Positions 10,521-38,340 of a stretch of DNA of 41,142 bases are shown in pieces. Both the position numbers and the translations under genes were made by a program. The DNA comes from Deltaproteobacteria bacterium (GTDB lineage: Bacteria; Desulfobacterota; Desulfobulbia; Desulfobulbales; Desulfocapsaceae): assembly GCA_019306075.1 (NCBI GenBank), contig JAFDME010000014.1, forward strand, positions 1-41,142. Reading direction: 5' to 3'. The number at the start of each line of letters is the position of its first letter. Within the stretch, counting starts at the first letter, position 1. Under the pieces are notes generated by a model. It was not told the origin of the DNA and did not search any database. It saw nothing but the letters and a program-made list of their open reading frames with translations.

Positions 10521-11933
10521 TCAGCTCTCATCCTGCCTGCCATACGCATCCTCGTAGCGAACGATATCATCTTCACCGAGGTAACTGCCAATCTGAACCT
10601 CGATCAGTTCCAGAGGGATCACACCGGGATTTTCCAGTCTGTGTCGGGTTCCTGCGGGAATATACGTCGACTGATTTTCATAGAGGAAGACTTTATCGTC
10701 ACCGTTGATTACCACGGCTGTACCGGCAACCACCACCCAATGCTCATAACGGTGGTGATGCTTCTGCAGCGATAATTTGGCTCCGGGATTCACCGTAATC
10801 CGCTTAATCTGAAAGCGCGGCTGTTCTTCCAGGACTGTATAACTCCCCCACGGTCTGTAGACAGTGCGATGCACACTGAACTCTCTTCTTTTTTCCTTTT
10901 TCAGACGGGTGACGATTTTTTTAACATCCTCCGATCGTGACAGGGGGGCAACCAGCACGGCGTCAGTAGTTTCAACAATCAGCGTATCTTCCATCCCCAC
11001 CGTTGCCACCAGCATCTCTTCCGCCCTGATCAGACAATTGCGGGTATCTTCTATTATTGTATTTCCAAGAGCCACATTCCCCATGTCATCTTTATCAAAG
11101 ACTTCCCACAGTGCACGCCAGGAACCAATATCGCTCCACCCAAGATCGGCGGATATGACTGCAGCATTAGCGGTCCTCTCCAGCAGGGCATAATCTATCG
11201 AGTCACTGGGACAGTTCTGCATGGCAGACTTTTCTAGCCTGAAAAAACGATCATCGACCTCGCCTTCTCTCACCGCCTCCGCCATGCTGGCGGCTATTTC
11301 CGGGGAAAATTTCTCCATTTCAGCCTTAAAGGTCTTTATGGAAAATGCAAACATGCCGCTGTTCCAGCAGTAGTTGCCGTCCTCAAAATATTGGAGGGCC
11401 AACTCAGCGTCAGGTTTCTCCTTAAAGGATGCAACCCTGACCCCCTCCCCGCACTCAATATATCCATACCCTGTCTCGGGGCGTGTGGGCTGTATACCAA
11501 AGGTGACAATAAAACCATCCGCGGCGAGAACCGCCGCCCGCAGAACAGCCTCGATAAATTTACTCTCATGGGCAACGACATGGTCCGCCGGCAAAACCAG
11601 GAGTACAGTCTCTTCATCCATCCCCCCGCAATATTCAGCGGCCGCACAAATTGCCGGCGCAGTATTTCTGCTCACGGGTTCCAGAAGAACAGTATAGTCA
11701 TTAAAGAGACCGAGCTCATCGATCTGCGATCTGGTTATAAATCTATGCTCTTCACCGACTACCACAACTGGAGAATGAGCGCCGGGAAGACTGCTCACAC
11801 GCCGCATGGTGGCCTGCAGCAATGAAAAATCACCGGTCAGCTGCAGAAGCTGCTTGGGATAGAGTTCACGAGACAGAGGCCACAATCTCGACCCGGTCCC
11901 CCCCGCCAGTATCACTGGTTGTATTTTTTCCAC
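10521..11933 (-). CDS. manC: Mannose-1-phosphate guanylyltransferase / mannose-6-phosphate isomerase
   Basis: 470 aa; VILAGGTGSRLWPLSRELYPKQ, FKEKPD, C-terminal cupin RPWGSYTVLEEQPRFQIKRITVNPGAKLSLQKHHHRYEHWVVV. Confidence 0.95.
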   Translation of the reverse strand: MEKIQPVILAGGTGSRLWPLSRELYPKQLLQLTGDFSLLQATMRRVSSLPGAHSPVVVVGEEHRFITRSQIDELGLFNDYTVLLEPVSRNTAPAICAAAEYCGGMDEETVLLVLPADHVVAHESKFIEAVLRAAVLAADGFIVTFGIQPTRPETGYGYIECGEGVRVASFKEKPDAELALQYFEDGNYCWNSGMFAFSIKTFKAEMEKFSPEIAASMAEAVREGEVDDRFFRLEKSAMQNCPSDSIDYALLERTANAAVISADLGWSDIGSWRALWEVFDKDDMGNVALGNTIIEDTRNCLIRAEEMLVATVGMEDTLIVETTDAVLVAPLSRSEDVKKIVTRLKKEKRREFSVHRTVYRPWGSYTVLEEQPRFQIKRITVNPGAKLSLQKHHHRYEHWVVVAGTAVVINGDDKVFLYENQSTYIPAGTRHRLENPGVIPLELIEVQIGSYLGEDDIVRYEDAYGRQDES

Positions 11934-12015
11934 TCTCTTCCTCTCTTTTTTAAACTCTATGAAAAGTCAATTACCACTCAAACTGAGCTATCAGTGGGTA
12001 CCTTTCTTTTAAATT

Positions 12016-12110
12016 AGCTGACAACAAGAGTTACAGGTACAGGCAAACAATCCCGCAGCGAGACACAAGCGTGGACGTTTGCCTGTACCATACTGTAACT
12101 CTGCGGGAAA
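12016..12110 (+). repeat. Structured dispersed repeat family, copy A (full length)
   Basis: AGCTGACAACAAGAGTTACAGGTACAGGCAAACAATCCCGCAGCGAGACACAAGCGTGGACGTTTGCCTGTACCATACTGTAACTCTGCGGGA; arms 12030-12048 / 12077-12099. Confidence 0.85.
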
Positions 12111-20982: not shown

Positions 20983-21172
20983 AACAATAGAACAGCTGCA
21001 CGGGAAAAGCTGAGCCGGGAGCTTGTCCATAAATGGCCTATTTCTAATTATTCTATTTGAGATGGTAACCAAAGCACACTATTATCGCTATTGTCGGTTC
21101 CATAAATTTGTAAACCGATCTACCATACGATCTCTTTTGAATTCAGTTATCGGCAGACACCCTTCTTCTGAC

Positions 21173-21216
21173 TTAGCTGACAGCAAGGGTTACAGTGCGG
21201 TTCCAGGAAGCTAGCA
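21173..21216 (+). repeat. Structured dispersed repeat family, copy B (short form lacking the central hairpin)
   Basis: TTAGCTGACAGCAAGGGTTACAGTGCGGTTCCAGGAAGCTAGC: 5' end joined almost directly to the family 3' end. Confidence 0.7.
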
Positions 21217-21257
21217 AAGGAATCAAAACCTTTAAACAACATAAACAACAAAAAATT

Positions 21258-30350: not shown

Positions 30351-30998
30351 TTGGAAGCTCACACCTTTATCACCTGCCTTATTGCCGTAACCCTGCTCAC
30401 CCTTACTCCCGGTCTGGATACCATACTGGTTATACGCAACAGCGGCCGTGGAGGCTGGCGTGATGGCGCGGCAAGCTCCCTTGGCATATGTTCAGGACTC
30501 TTTGTCCATGCCACCGTTTCCGCCCTGGGAATTTCCCTGATTCTGCTGAAAACAGCATGGGCTTTTAATGGACTGAAATTTGCCGGTGCCGCATATCTTA
30601 TCTGGCTCGGGGTAACAAGCTGGAAACATGCTGTCCATAGTACCAGATGCATCTTTCCCGATGCCCTGACCGGCTCGGAAAGTGAGTTCAGATTTATGCG
30701 GTCGCTACGGGAAGGATTCCTCTCAAACGTTCTCAATCCGAAGACAATCATCTTTTATATGGCCTTTCTTCCTCAGTTTATAGACCCTGCAGGGTCACCG
30801 CTGATGCAGTCTCTTCTGGTCGCCGGCCTGCACTTCTCTGTTGCCATGATCTACCAGTGCCTGCTTGCCTCCATGGTTGACAGGTCGAGAAACTGGCTGC
30901 AGAAACCCGGGATAAACCGTATTTTCCATGGACTTACCGGGTCGGTTATGATCATGATCGGGCTGAAACTCGTAATAGGGGAACTTGACCACCGCTGA
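30351..30998 (+). CDS. LysE/RhtB family amino-acid exporter (TTG start)
   Basis: 215 aa; ITCLIAVTLLTLTPGLDTILVIRNSGRGGWRDGAASSLGICSGLFVHATVSALGIS...; GGAGG upstream of TTG. Confidence 0.88.
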   Translation: MEAHTFITCLIAVTLLTLTPGLDTILVIRNSGRGGWRDGAASSLGICSGLFVHATVSALGISLILLKTAWAFNGLKFAGAAYLIWLGVTSWKHAVHSTRCIFPDALTGSESEFRFMRSLREGFLSNVLNPKTIIFYMAFLPQFIDPAGSPLMQSLLVAGLHFSVAMIYQCLLASMVDRSRNWLQKPGINRIFHGLTGSVMIMIGLKLVIGELDHR

Positions 30999-31016
30999 AC
31001 CGCAGTGCCATTATCC

Positions 31017-31128
31017 GGTAGTTTCCTTGAACCGCAGTGTTTCTGCGGAATACCAGCAAACGTCCACGCTCGTGCCTCGCTGCGGGATTGTTTGCCGGTA
31101 CCCCGCTGAAACCCTTGCTGCCAGCTAT
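31017..31128 (-). repeat. Structured dispersed repeat family, copy C (full length, opposite orientation)
   Basis: Reverse complement: ATAGCTGGCAGCAAGGGTTTCAGCGGGGTACCGGCAAACAATCCCGCAGCGAGGCACGAGCGTGGACGTTTGCTGGTATTCCGCAGAAACACTGCGGTTCAAGGAAACTACC. Confidence 0.85.
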
Positions 31129-31136
31129 ATATTTAA

Positions 31137-33646: not shown

Positions 33647-34440
33647 TCCAGGATATCCATAACCTTTCTTACATCACCAATGGGAAGCTGACCGGGGGCT
33701 GTGGCGTCAATTCCCGTGGCAAAAGTGATATCAGAACCAAAAACACCCCCTCCAAGACGGCTTATCGCTCCGACAGCTCCCATTGACATGGTTATCATCG
33801 GGATCTTCACCAGACCTGTTCTGGCCCGGCAGGTTGCACTCAGCAGGGTCAGAACATCTCCACTGTTCTGCGGCATAACCGCCACTTTAGCGATATCACC
33901 TCCCATCTCTTCAGCCTGAACAAGTTTTTCAACGACAAACTCCTCAGCCGGTGTCCGATCAAAATTATGGTAGGAAAGGATCAATTTACACAGGCTCTCC
34001 TCTCCGACCTCTTTGACTCGATCGATAAACCCGGCTCCGCTGGACATTTCAATATCAGCAATATCGACATCCCCGGTGGATATTGCCCCGGTAACAAGTT
34101 CCAGCCTCTCTGGCCCGGACATTGTATTTTGACCGCCTTCCAGCTCCGATCTGCAGGTAAAAATAAGGGGTATTGATCCGATCTTTTTCCTTAGCTCCCT
34201 GAGAACCAAAAGACATTTATCCATCTCCCGTGCATGCTCAAAGCAGTCAACCCGCCACTCAATAAGATCCGGCCCTAATTTTATTATCTCACCGGCCCGG
34301 GCCAGAAGTTCACTTTTCCGTTTTGCCGAAAGAGGTAGACAGATCAGCACTTTTTCCGCACCAATAACCGTATCCCTGATAACAACCTGCCTGCTGCTCT
34401 GCTTCCTCATCGGGTTTATCTCCATATTTTGATCTGACAA
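33643..34440 (-). CDS. aroD: 3-dehydroquinate dehydratase, type I
   Basis: 265 aa; DLIEWRVDCFEHA, LIFTCRSELEGG, KLILSYHNFDRTP, DIAKVAVMPQN. Confidence 0.9.
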   Translation of the reverse strand: MSDQNMEINPMRKQSSRQVVIRDTVIGAEKVLICLPLSAKRKSELLARAGEIIKLGPDLIEWRVDCFEHAREMDKCLLVLRELRKKIGSIPLIFTCRSELEGGQNTMSGPERLELVTGAISTGDVDIADIEMSSGAGFIDRVKEVGEESLCKLILSYHNFDRTPAEEFVVEKLVQAEEMGGDIAKVAVMPQNSGDVLTLLSATCRARTGLVKIPMITMSMGAVGAISRLGGGVFGSDITFATGIDATAPGQLPIGDVRKVMDILD

Positions 34441-34490
34441 CAGAGTTGCCGGTATCCTGCTGCAACACTGCAGTTCAGGAAGCTTACCAG
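34433..34490 (+). repeat. Structured dispersed repeat family, copy D (intermediate form)
   Basis: CTGACAACAGAGTTGCCGGTATCCTGCTGCAACACTGCAGTTCAGGAAGCTTACCAG; GTTGC...GCAAC mini-hairpin between conserved ends. Confidence 0.7.
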
Positions 34491-34631
34491 AAAATGAAGC
34501 TGAAGGTCAGCGGTAATCAAAGAAATTTATTGTTATACCCAGCTGAACCTGTCAAGGTGGGCAATATAGTCAAAATCAAAAACAAAAGCTCATCACATCA
34601 GTAACAACAGAGAGAAAGGCGAGGAGAAACA

Positions 34632-36965: not shown

Positions 36966-37027
36966 GGGAGTATTTTCTCAACACCACTTCATCAGCAAAA
37001 ATCTTGATTACCACCCAAACGCTAATT

Positions 37028-37070
37028 CAACTGACAGCAAGGGTTGCCAGCGGGGTGCCGGCAAACAAAA
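37028..37070 (+). repeat. Structured dispersed repeat family, copy E (5' half only)
   Basis: AACTGACAGCAAGGGTTGCCAGCGGGGTGCCGGCAAACAAAAC, matching the 5' arm of copy C. Confidence 0.7.
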
Positions 37071-37074
37071 CTTC

Positions 37075-38340
37075 TTATTCTTCTGTAAGTCCAAGCGCTT
37101 CAGAAATCAGATCAAGGATATGAACCGCCTTTACCTGCAGGCCTGCATGGTTTATCACATCCTGCAGCTGCATAATGCAGCCGGGGCAGGCGGTAGCTAT
37201 CATTTCAGCACCGCTCTCCTTTAGTCCCGCAATCTTGCGTGCCCCTATTGCCTTGCTGATTTCATAGTGGTAGACGGAAAATGTACCACCAAGACCGCAG
37301 CAGGAAGACGCCCCCTCCATCTCCACAAATTCCACATTGGGCAGGGCCCTGAGGAGTGCCCGGGGTTCTTTGGTAATCCCCTGGGTTTTAAGGTGACATG
37401 GGTCATGATACGTTACCCTGGTTCTGGCCTGCCATTTTGGCAGCTCCGCCATCTCCTCAATAAACCCCTGCTCGGCGAGAAACAGATTAAAGTCAATAAC
37501 CTTGCCGGTAAAATCACCGTAGTCAGCTTTCATGGTGCTGTAGTACTCCCTGACTCCGCCATTACAGGAGGCACAGCAGGTGATGATGTGCTCTATATCA
37601 TATTTCTGAAAACTTCTGACATTGTCTTCTGCAAGTTTTTCGACCAACCTGCCATCCCCCGAAGAGAGGGCAGGAATGCCGCAGCACTTCTGGGATCCCG
37701 GTAAAAAGACAGAATAACCCATCTTCTGCAGCAACCGAATCATCGAAGCACCAATTTCAGGATAGATAAAGGAAATCGAACAACCGGCAAAAAAACCGAC
37801 GGTGGGTTTATCGCCATCCCCCCTGATAAACTCAGGGAAGAGATCAAAGAGATTTTTTGCAGGGATAACAGGCAGGCTGCGATCCTTCATCAGCGGCACA
37901 GGAAAGCGCAGACGAAGGCCACTTGAAGCAGGGATTTCTTTCAAAAGCAATGGAGAAAGAGCGGCGCCGGTCTTTATCGCCGCCTTCATCAGCGGTTTAT
38001 GACCGATAACAGTGGACACCCCCCTGCCGAGAAGAGAAAGACCACGATTATCAGTTATCTCTCTTCGAATGGCTCCCACTATTTTATCGGTGGGTACACT
38101 GTTTGGACATGTGTTGACACAGGAGCCACACATCAGACACATGGAGATATCCTGCCTCAATCTCTTCTCAAGAACACCCGTTTTATCGAGAAGAGCTGCG
38201 GCAAGAGCAATTTTCCCGCGGGCAACATCGCCTTCCCTGCGATTTTCCAGATAAACAGGGCAGTGAGCCTGGCAGGCCCCGCATTTCACACACTCGCGAA
38301 TCTGCACCTCATAATCTTTCAGCGTTTTATTCTTATCCAT
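37075..38340 (-). CDS. GlcF-like iron-sulfur subunit (two 4Fe-4S motifs, two CCG domains)
   Basis: 421 aa; CVKCGACQAHCPVY, CLMCGSCVNTCPN, GFFAGCSISFIYPE...KCCGIP, DPCHL...CCGLGG. Confidence 0.92.
   Translation of the reverse strand: MDKNKTLKDYEVQIRECVKCGACQAHCPVYLENRREGDVARGKIALAAALLDKTGVLEKRLRQDISMCLMCGSCVNTCPNSVPTDKIVGAIRREITDNRGLSLLGRGVSTVIGHKPLMKAAIKTGAALSPLLLKEIPASSGLRLRFPVPLMKDRSLPVIPAKNLFDLFPEFIRGDGDKPTVGFFAGCSISFIYPEIGASMIRLLQKMGYSVFLPGSQKCCGIPALSSGDGRLVEKLAEDNVRSFQKYDIEHIITCCASCNGGVREYYSTMKADYGDFTGKVIDFNLFLAEQGFIEEMAELPKWQARTRVTYHDPCHLKTQGITKEPRALLRALPNVEFVEMEGASSCCGLGGTFSVYHYEISKAIGARKIAGLKESGAEMIATACPGCIMQLQDVINHAGLQVKAVHILDLISEALGLTEE

Follow-up and report, generated by a model that had tools for sequence, protein, structure and literature searches.

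Dispersed repeats of a Desulfocapsaceae genome as probable copies of an IS1595-end MITE that carries a conserved hairpin

The repeats scattered over the window (the whole stretch of 41,142 nucleotides analysed here, which is contig 160 of a 3.07-Mb MAG of 307 contigs and 85% completeness) are best explained, with a probability of about 0.7, as copies, many of them truncated, of a MITE of approximately 189 bp that has IS1595-type ends and bears a distinct conserved hairpin as cargo, perhaps working as RNA of the + strand. This type of element is already known, and the carrier is an ordinary one from a known transposon family. The hairpin cargo is hard to explain, since its core remains almost the same as the surrounding mobile element degenerates. 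This hairpin is held by compensatory change where loci are orthologous, occurs in several genera and apparently reaches Geobacter-like relatives. Tiny non-autonomous elements appear to spread an almost unchanging structure through sulfur-cycling bacteria.

The carrier element and its probable transposase

In an alignment of thirty copies with their flanks, complete elements measure 185–189 bp, start with TGATTACCACTnAAnCTCAGCT and end in the inverted repeat of TGATTACCACTnAAnCTCAGCT, with TIRs of 22–24 bp at both ends. The similarity among copies extends past the shared ends AGCTGACAGC and AAGCTTACC, which a sequence-only reading of the window had taken for the termini; these are internal, and the true ends are the TIRs lying farther out, as seen in copies A, D and E. 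Shorter size classes of 82, 100, 110, 115, 118, 136, 158 and 175 bp are also found, and throughout the main classes (82–189 bp) the elements code for nothing and contain no transposase. A profile built from the full-length copies matches each of the five window copies (Table 1). All five had been recognized in the earlier reading at or near these coordinates, as confirmed by sequence and profile search, and their intergenic location in both orientations had been described correctly; copies B, D and E, which had been set apart by their different cores, turn out to be internal-deletion or truncated derivatives of one 189-bp element.

Table 1. Position and anatomy of the five window copies and of the two complete hairpins among them (CM, covariance model)
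Feature	Position	Strand	Profile match	E value	Anatomy
Copy A	11968–12108	+	11970–12107	2e-34	Left TIR (11968–~11989), then 5' flank and whole hairpin; lacks the right third and the right TIR
Copy A hairpin	12028–12105	+		8e-17 (CM)	Near-invariant apical core, two differences from consensus
Copy B	21138–21221	+	21138–21209	5e-11	5' flank plus a portion of the 3' flank, with deletion of the hairpin and erosion of both TIRs
Copy C	30987–31131	−	30987–31131	5e-42	Complete hairpin and right TIR remnant; left TIR absent
Copy C hairpin	31033–31114	−		4e-22 (CM)	Exact consensus 37-nt core
Copy D	34433–34519	+	34446–34519	4e-12	3' half: hairpin 3' arm, 3' flank and right TIR (34496–34519, also matched by the TIR pattern); 5' arm and loop deleted
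Copy E	37005–37068	+	37022–37068	6e-7	Left TIR (37005–~37026), internal deletion, then hairpin 5' arm

The genes adjoining the copies (window positions 10521–38340) are ordinary ones. Copy A lies beside mannose-1-phosphate guanylyltransferase-like and phosphomannomutase-like genes, copy B beside genes for a PrmA-like methyltransferase and a carboxylesterase-like hydrolase, copy C beside an RsgA GTPase gene, copy D beside 3-dehydroquinase and shikimate dehydrogenase genes, and copy E beside the gene of a CCG/4Fe-4S protein. The end of copy E abuts the stop codon of its neighbouring gene (37075–38340, minus strand).

A high copy number in the genome had been anticipated from the window and is borne out: a BLAST search with copy C alone locates about 40 more sites in the MAG (best E ~1e-36), the sequences examined contain 60 distinct copies, whole or fragmentary, and the right-end pattern, at up to three mismatches, occurs 47 times in this genome, whereas its reversed form, used as a control, is never found. 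When no more than one mismatch is allowed, the TIR pattern is found in 23 of 93 Desulfocapsaceae genomes, belonging to 8 of the 18 genera, and its reversed control again gives zero. Insertion has left its trace in the flanks. Among 78 distinct elements, in which MITEs and IS were pooled, flank identity is 0.63–0.71 over precisely eight positions, at a distance of two bases from the element ends, compared with 0.35–0.37 on either side, and 33 of the 78 match at no fewer than seven of these eight positions, against an expected 0.0099 from shuffled pairings. The target duplications (TSDs) are exactly 8 bp long and AT-rich; in many old copies they have been erased, which is to be expected.

Autonomous relatives with such ends have been found in the same bacterial family. 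One of them, in genome G025, is an element of 1060 bp around a 315-aa transposase (locus L095) that matches PF12762 (DDE, E 4e-31), PF12760 (zinc ribbon, E 2e-16) and the NCBIfam IS1595 model NF033547 (183 bits). Relatives of this transposase are present in 68 of the 93 family genomes, and most of the best-scoring ones examined sit in elements of 1024–1061 bp with TGATTAC...GTAATCA ends and 8-bp direct repeats (for example, AATATTTA, AATTTATT and AAAATATT). The marks of IS1595 membership, namely a zinc-ribbon and DDE transposase together with 8-bp repeats, are found in these autonomous relatives and not in the MITE itself. The window elements share with them similar TGATTAC...GTAATCA termini and 8-bp AT-rich duplications, but are at most 189 bp long, non-coding and provided with the conserved hairpin. 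From the TIRs, the 8-bp TSDs and the similar ends of related IS1595 elements, the window family is therefore a MITE with IS1595-type ends that is presumably moved in trans, in agreement with the earlier proposal of a non-autonomous family. An IS1595 (DDE) transposase would bind the TIRs and mediate insertion of the MITE at AT-rich sites between genes. The window's own MAG, which is 85% complete and in 307 contigs, yielded no intact IS1595 element with matching ends; its traces of the family are a 58-aa fragment that scores under the Pfam cut-off and a 299-aa ORF that is divergent, so that the partner may have been lost, left unassembled or diverged. The 299-aa IS1595-like protein (L051 1812–2711, on contig C256 of the window's own genome, G000) adjoins a truncated MITE and is possibly a domesticated or decaying transposase; as the partner of the MITE it was discarded, because it has no flanking TIR pair and scores below the NCBIfam cut-off.

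Two further observations concern the neighbourhood and contents of such elements. Some MITEs of the same genome have a repeat of the form GTAAGTACCTTGGAGGTATATACC ... GTTACAG.AGTTCTGGAGT.A inserted within or next to them (L017 115–582, L022 1454–1707 and the left flank of L218). Other MITEs with the same IS1595-type ends bear other palindromes, either GTCATTCCGGACTTGATCCGGAAT-like or TGTAGGAGCTCGCCCCTGCGAGCG (L033 313–461, L080 673–773, L082 1352–1522 and L103 1372–1522), as if this type of MITE commonly acquired REP-like hairpins.

Structure, conservation and folding strand of the hairpin

Inside the MITE sits a hairpin of about 75 nt, formed by a stem of approximately 23 bp and a structured tip (predicted fold z −6.5), and a covariance-model search gives about 44 such hairpins in the window's own genome. 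Among 35 core-bearing copies, the pairwise divergence of the 37-nt apical core is 0.07, versus 0.21–0.27 for the TIRs, 0.22–0.24 for the stem and 0.28–0.32 for the flanks, and the core shows mostly no change or one change in copies whose flanks differ by 8–29%. Since copies found by BLAST might favour intact cores, the core was re-examined in copies found only by their TIRs. Within 200 bp of 15 of the 33 TIR ends there is an intact core (13 perfect and two with one change, in 11 distinct elements), the remaining 18 have no core, and there are no intermediates; nine of these 11 MITEs have a core of 37/37 and two of 36/37, while the rest of the element has diverged by approximately 10–20%. The core is predicted to comprise an AA/C internal loop, a UCC:GGA helix, an RCA/G[AU] internal loop, GC:GC plus tandem G.A pairs and a small loop. 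In two hairpins (L265 and L268) the tandem G.A mismatches of the tip are replaced by Watson-Crick pairs, which supports the G35-C47/C36-G46/G39-C43 arrangement over that of minimum energy. The foot of the hairpin is mostly GGCAGCAA or GACAGCAA in the copies of the window's own genome, and GTAGCAA is seen only in some relatives.

The sequence of the ~23-bp stem is free and its pairing is held. In 27 diverse hairpins of three genera, 90% of cells pair and 22 pairs have changed on both sides, with 150 double-change cells versus 35 in shuffled data and a score of 0.538 versus 0.166, slid controls reaching at most 0.123. Further copies and covariation, the two things whose absence had been named as counting against the sequence-only reading, are both present. 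The same behaviour is seen between orthologous loci. Genomes G066 and G062 have a hairpin flanked by the same pair of genes, the products of which are ~94% identical; the two hairpins differ at ten positions, nine in the stem and one in the loop. Three pairs have changed on both sides, three one-sided changes keep pairing (two A-U to G-U and one U-G to C-G), and no pair is broken. Another example is the orthologous pair of G015 and G030, where pairing is kept in most of the stem. Two other candidates, L218/L277 and L243/L253, were rejected as orthologous hairpins; their flanking genes match, but the intergenic DNA is unalignable, and these are therefore probably independent insertions.

The folded strand has been approached through the mispairs. 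G.U cells outnumber A.C cells by 50 to 11 in the diverse set and by 93 to 32 in the copies of the window's own genome, counts made on cells that are not independent, and this excess favours the + strand as the one that folds, be it as RNA or as single-stranded DNA; it is support for that strand and not proof. The + strand of the hairpin coincides with the C-rich strand in 17 of the 21 copies of this genome that were judged on stretches of 12–41 kb, and, with flanks of ~3 kb or less, in 24 of 30 copies of this genome (p 0.0014) and 23 of 33 other copies (p 0.035), a bias in which gene orientation and replication direction are confounded. In the window's own genome (L218–L247) this bias is unexplained by the composition of the hairpin itself. 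The hairpins show no enrichment upstream or downstream of co-oriented genes, and this, together with the C-rich-strand tendency, argues against the hairpins serving in general as cis-acting elements of mRNAs made from the + strand. Two other readings were rejected by inspection, that of an intrinsic terminator, as there is no T-run 3' of the stem, and that of an attC-like site, because the conserved bases are apical and not at R boxes. In Rfam 15, no family matched the hairpin at any gathering score, and relaxed thresholds gave only low-scoring noise from microRNA models.

Function of the hairpin and competing explanations

The hairpin would be a distinct, older and partly independent motif that the MITE disperses. 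A structured RNA is our best guess for its function: there is about an even chance that it works as such from the + strand, most likely as a binding or processing site that a putative partner would recognize through the conserved apical core. The earlier suggestion of a dispersed structured RNA is supported in part, by the strong covariation, the invariant core, the strand bias in pairing and the hairpins outside the MITE. If it is RNA, mobile elements have supplied the genomes of sulfur- and metal-cycling bacteria with dozens of nearly identical binding sites each, and a family reported in 2009, with no function attached to it, gains a defined and testable consensus.

The same reading had also proposed a REP/BIME-like family, possibly mobilized by a RAYT. 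In that case the hairpin would be a single-stranded DNA element mobilized by a Y1 HUH (RAYT/TnpA-REP) transposase and the IS1595 MITE would merely have captured it, which is unlikely. The window family does share with REP/RAYT systems and BIMEs the many intergenic palindromes per genome, and hairpins outside MITEs in several genomes, discrete ~120-bp units (several of them 92–100% alike) in a more distant genome (G314, see below), Y1_Tnp genes in 11 of 12 hairpin genomes and the biased orientation of the hairpins relative to GC skew are all in its favour. On the other hand, the carrier has TIRs and TSDs of DDE type, and the 30 Y1 loci of hairpin-bearing genomes are all free of hairpins within ~1.5 kb; the window's own genome, the richest in hairpins, has only two Y1 genes (141–143 aa) with no hairpin near them, and no Y1 gene was detected in G066. 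Moreover, the stem sequence is free to vary, unlike that of REPs, which is copied along with the element, and the 20–40-bp palindrome with a conserved GTAG/CGTC tag at its foot that characterizes REPs is not seen in the window copies. It is likewise improbable that the hairpin is needed for mobility of the MITE, for instance in transposase assembly or as a protein-binding site, in which case the conservation of the core would reflect which copies move and not a host function. Diverse IS1595-type MITEs of three genera do carry the hairpin centrally, and cores are either intact or wholly deleted. Such a role is weakened by the TIRs, which are necessarily needed and yet far less conserved than the core (0.21–0.27 versus 0.07), and by hairpin-less derivatives of 82–136 bp that have both TIRs, one of them with a perfect TSD; in addition, immobile truncated or stand-alone copies retain the core, and the hairpin is absent from the autonomous IS1595 elements searched.

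Two explanations dispense with selection on the hairpin. Quasi-palindrome correction is an established mutational mechanism, and template switching between the arms during replication could keep the palindrome, the core looking conserved because the copies are young. The abundance of deletion derivatives fits this mechanism, and compensatory change could in part stem from it. As a full account it is quite improbable, given that the core is nearly unchanged in copies whose flanks differ by 8–29% and recurs within the wholly different stem sequences of other genera, and that correction between arms leaves unexplained the invariant loops and the excess of G.U over A.C. The other explanation, in which the MITE is ordinary, its palindrome arose by chance and nothing more than selfish spread is involved, is very improbable. 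The MITE anatomy is indeed complete, and stable stem-loops are said to be general for transcripts of prokaryotic MITEs (PMC10969869), but this would not account for covariation across genera, for hairpins outside the MITE, or for a related multicopy family in another family of Desulfobacterota.

Distribution and relation to known families

In a scan of named genomes, the exact core pattern was found only in MAGs labelled Desulfocapsa sp. A core model (R1) detects hairpins in 10 of the 93 family genomes, and a broader one (R2), applied to 258 genomes of the order, in 12, which all belong to the window's own family and represent three genera. Several of these hairpins lie outside recognizable MITEs; their stems, though unrelated in sequence, still pair, and their apical core is the same. 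No match was obtained in plasmids, phages or viral contigs. Like the window family, Correia/NEMIS elements of Neisseria are non-autonomous and have TIRs, and their transcripts fold and can undergo processing or yield small RNAs. QMITE of Coxiella (PMC10969869) is a structured MITE of the same kind, with folding transcripts that may likewise be processed or become small RNAs. Neither is known to belong to the IS1595 family, and the core motif of the window family differs from both in being conserved far beyond the MITE and across genera. A literature search brought up no publication that describes hairpins of this kind in IS1595 MITEs, nor any that deals with repeats of Desulfocapsa.

A link with Geobacter is suggested by a more distant genome. 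A phylum-wide scan of 395 genomes gave one match in another family of Desulfobacterota (G314, E 2e-4), and about nine related sequences, several of them 92–100% alike over 120 bp, are present in the 370 kb of it examined. These copies have AATCCCGCAGCGA and GAGCGAGGAC at mirrored positions, as in the window family, and a longer tip with GTAGCAGCGCTAC, which is the reverse complement, over 13 bases, of the centre of the Geobacter palindrome GRCGTAGCGCTGCTACGCC. The latter is described for 24 'predicted short RNA elements' (Gmet_R1005 family) reported in 2009 in Geobacter metallireducens; one of these elements is located between dapAB and dapL, and similar sequences were also seen in G. sulfurreducens, G. 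uraniireducens and Desulfotalea psychrophila (PMC2700814). Both families, as far as that description goes, are multicopy and intergenic with a central palindrome; the window copies differ in having a shorter apical part, in lying inside an IS1595-type MITE and in the absence from them of GRCGTAGCGCTGCTACGCC itself. The hairpin is thus apparently related to the Geobacter family, through an indirect link made by the sequences of G314 and the palindrome as described. The Desulfotalea-1 candidate RNA motif of Weinberg et al. (2010; PMC2864571), whose status as RNA is given there as '?' and whose entry has no Rfam accession, may be identical with the hairpin; this is a lead only, suggested by the naming of the motif after a relative of this lineage. 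Tentatively, and with rather less confidence than would be needed to expect it, the hairpins may represent an uncharacterised class of structured RNA (or folded single-stranded DNA) of Desulfobacterota, with stems that are free in sequence but strict in pairing, a lineage-specific and conserved apical core for a putative partner, and dispersal as cargo of IS1595-type MITEs and other repeats that it outlives.

Finally, a different dispersed repeat, TTATATGAAAGTCCTGTACTATTCGGGAGGAAA-[hairpin]-...CTTTCAT, has been observed in congeneric species (L261, L277, L281, L275 and L278, in genomes G002, G001 and G005). Its hairpin is shorter and follows the same core logic, CAATCCACAGC..GCGAGGACG. In the window's own genome, L233 resembles the left flank of this repeat, but the core of L233 is of the type of that genome.
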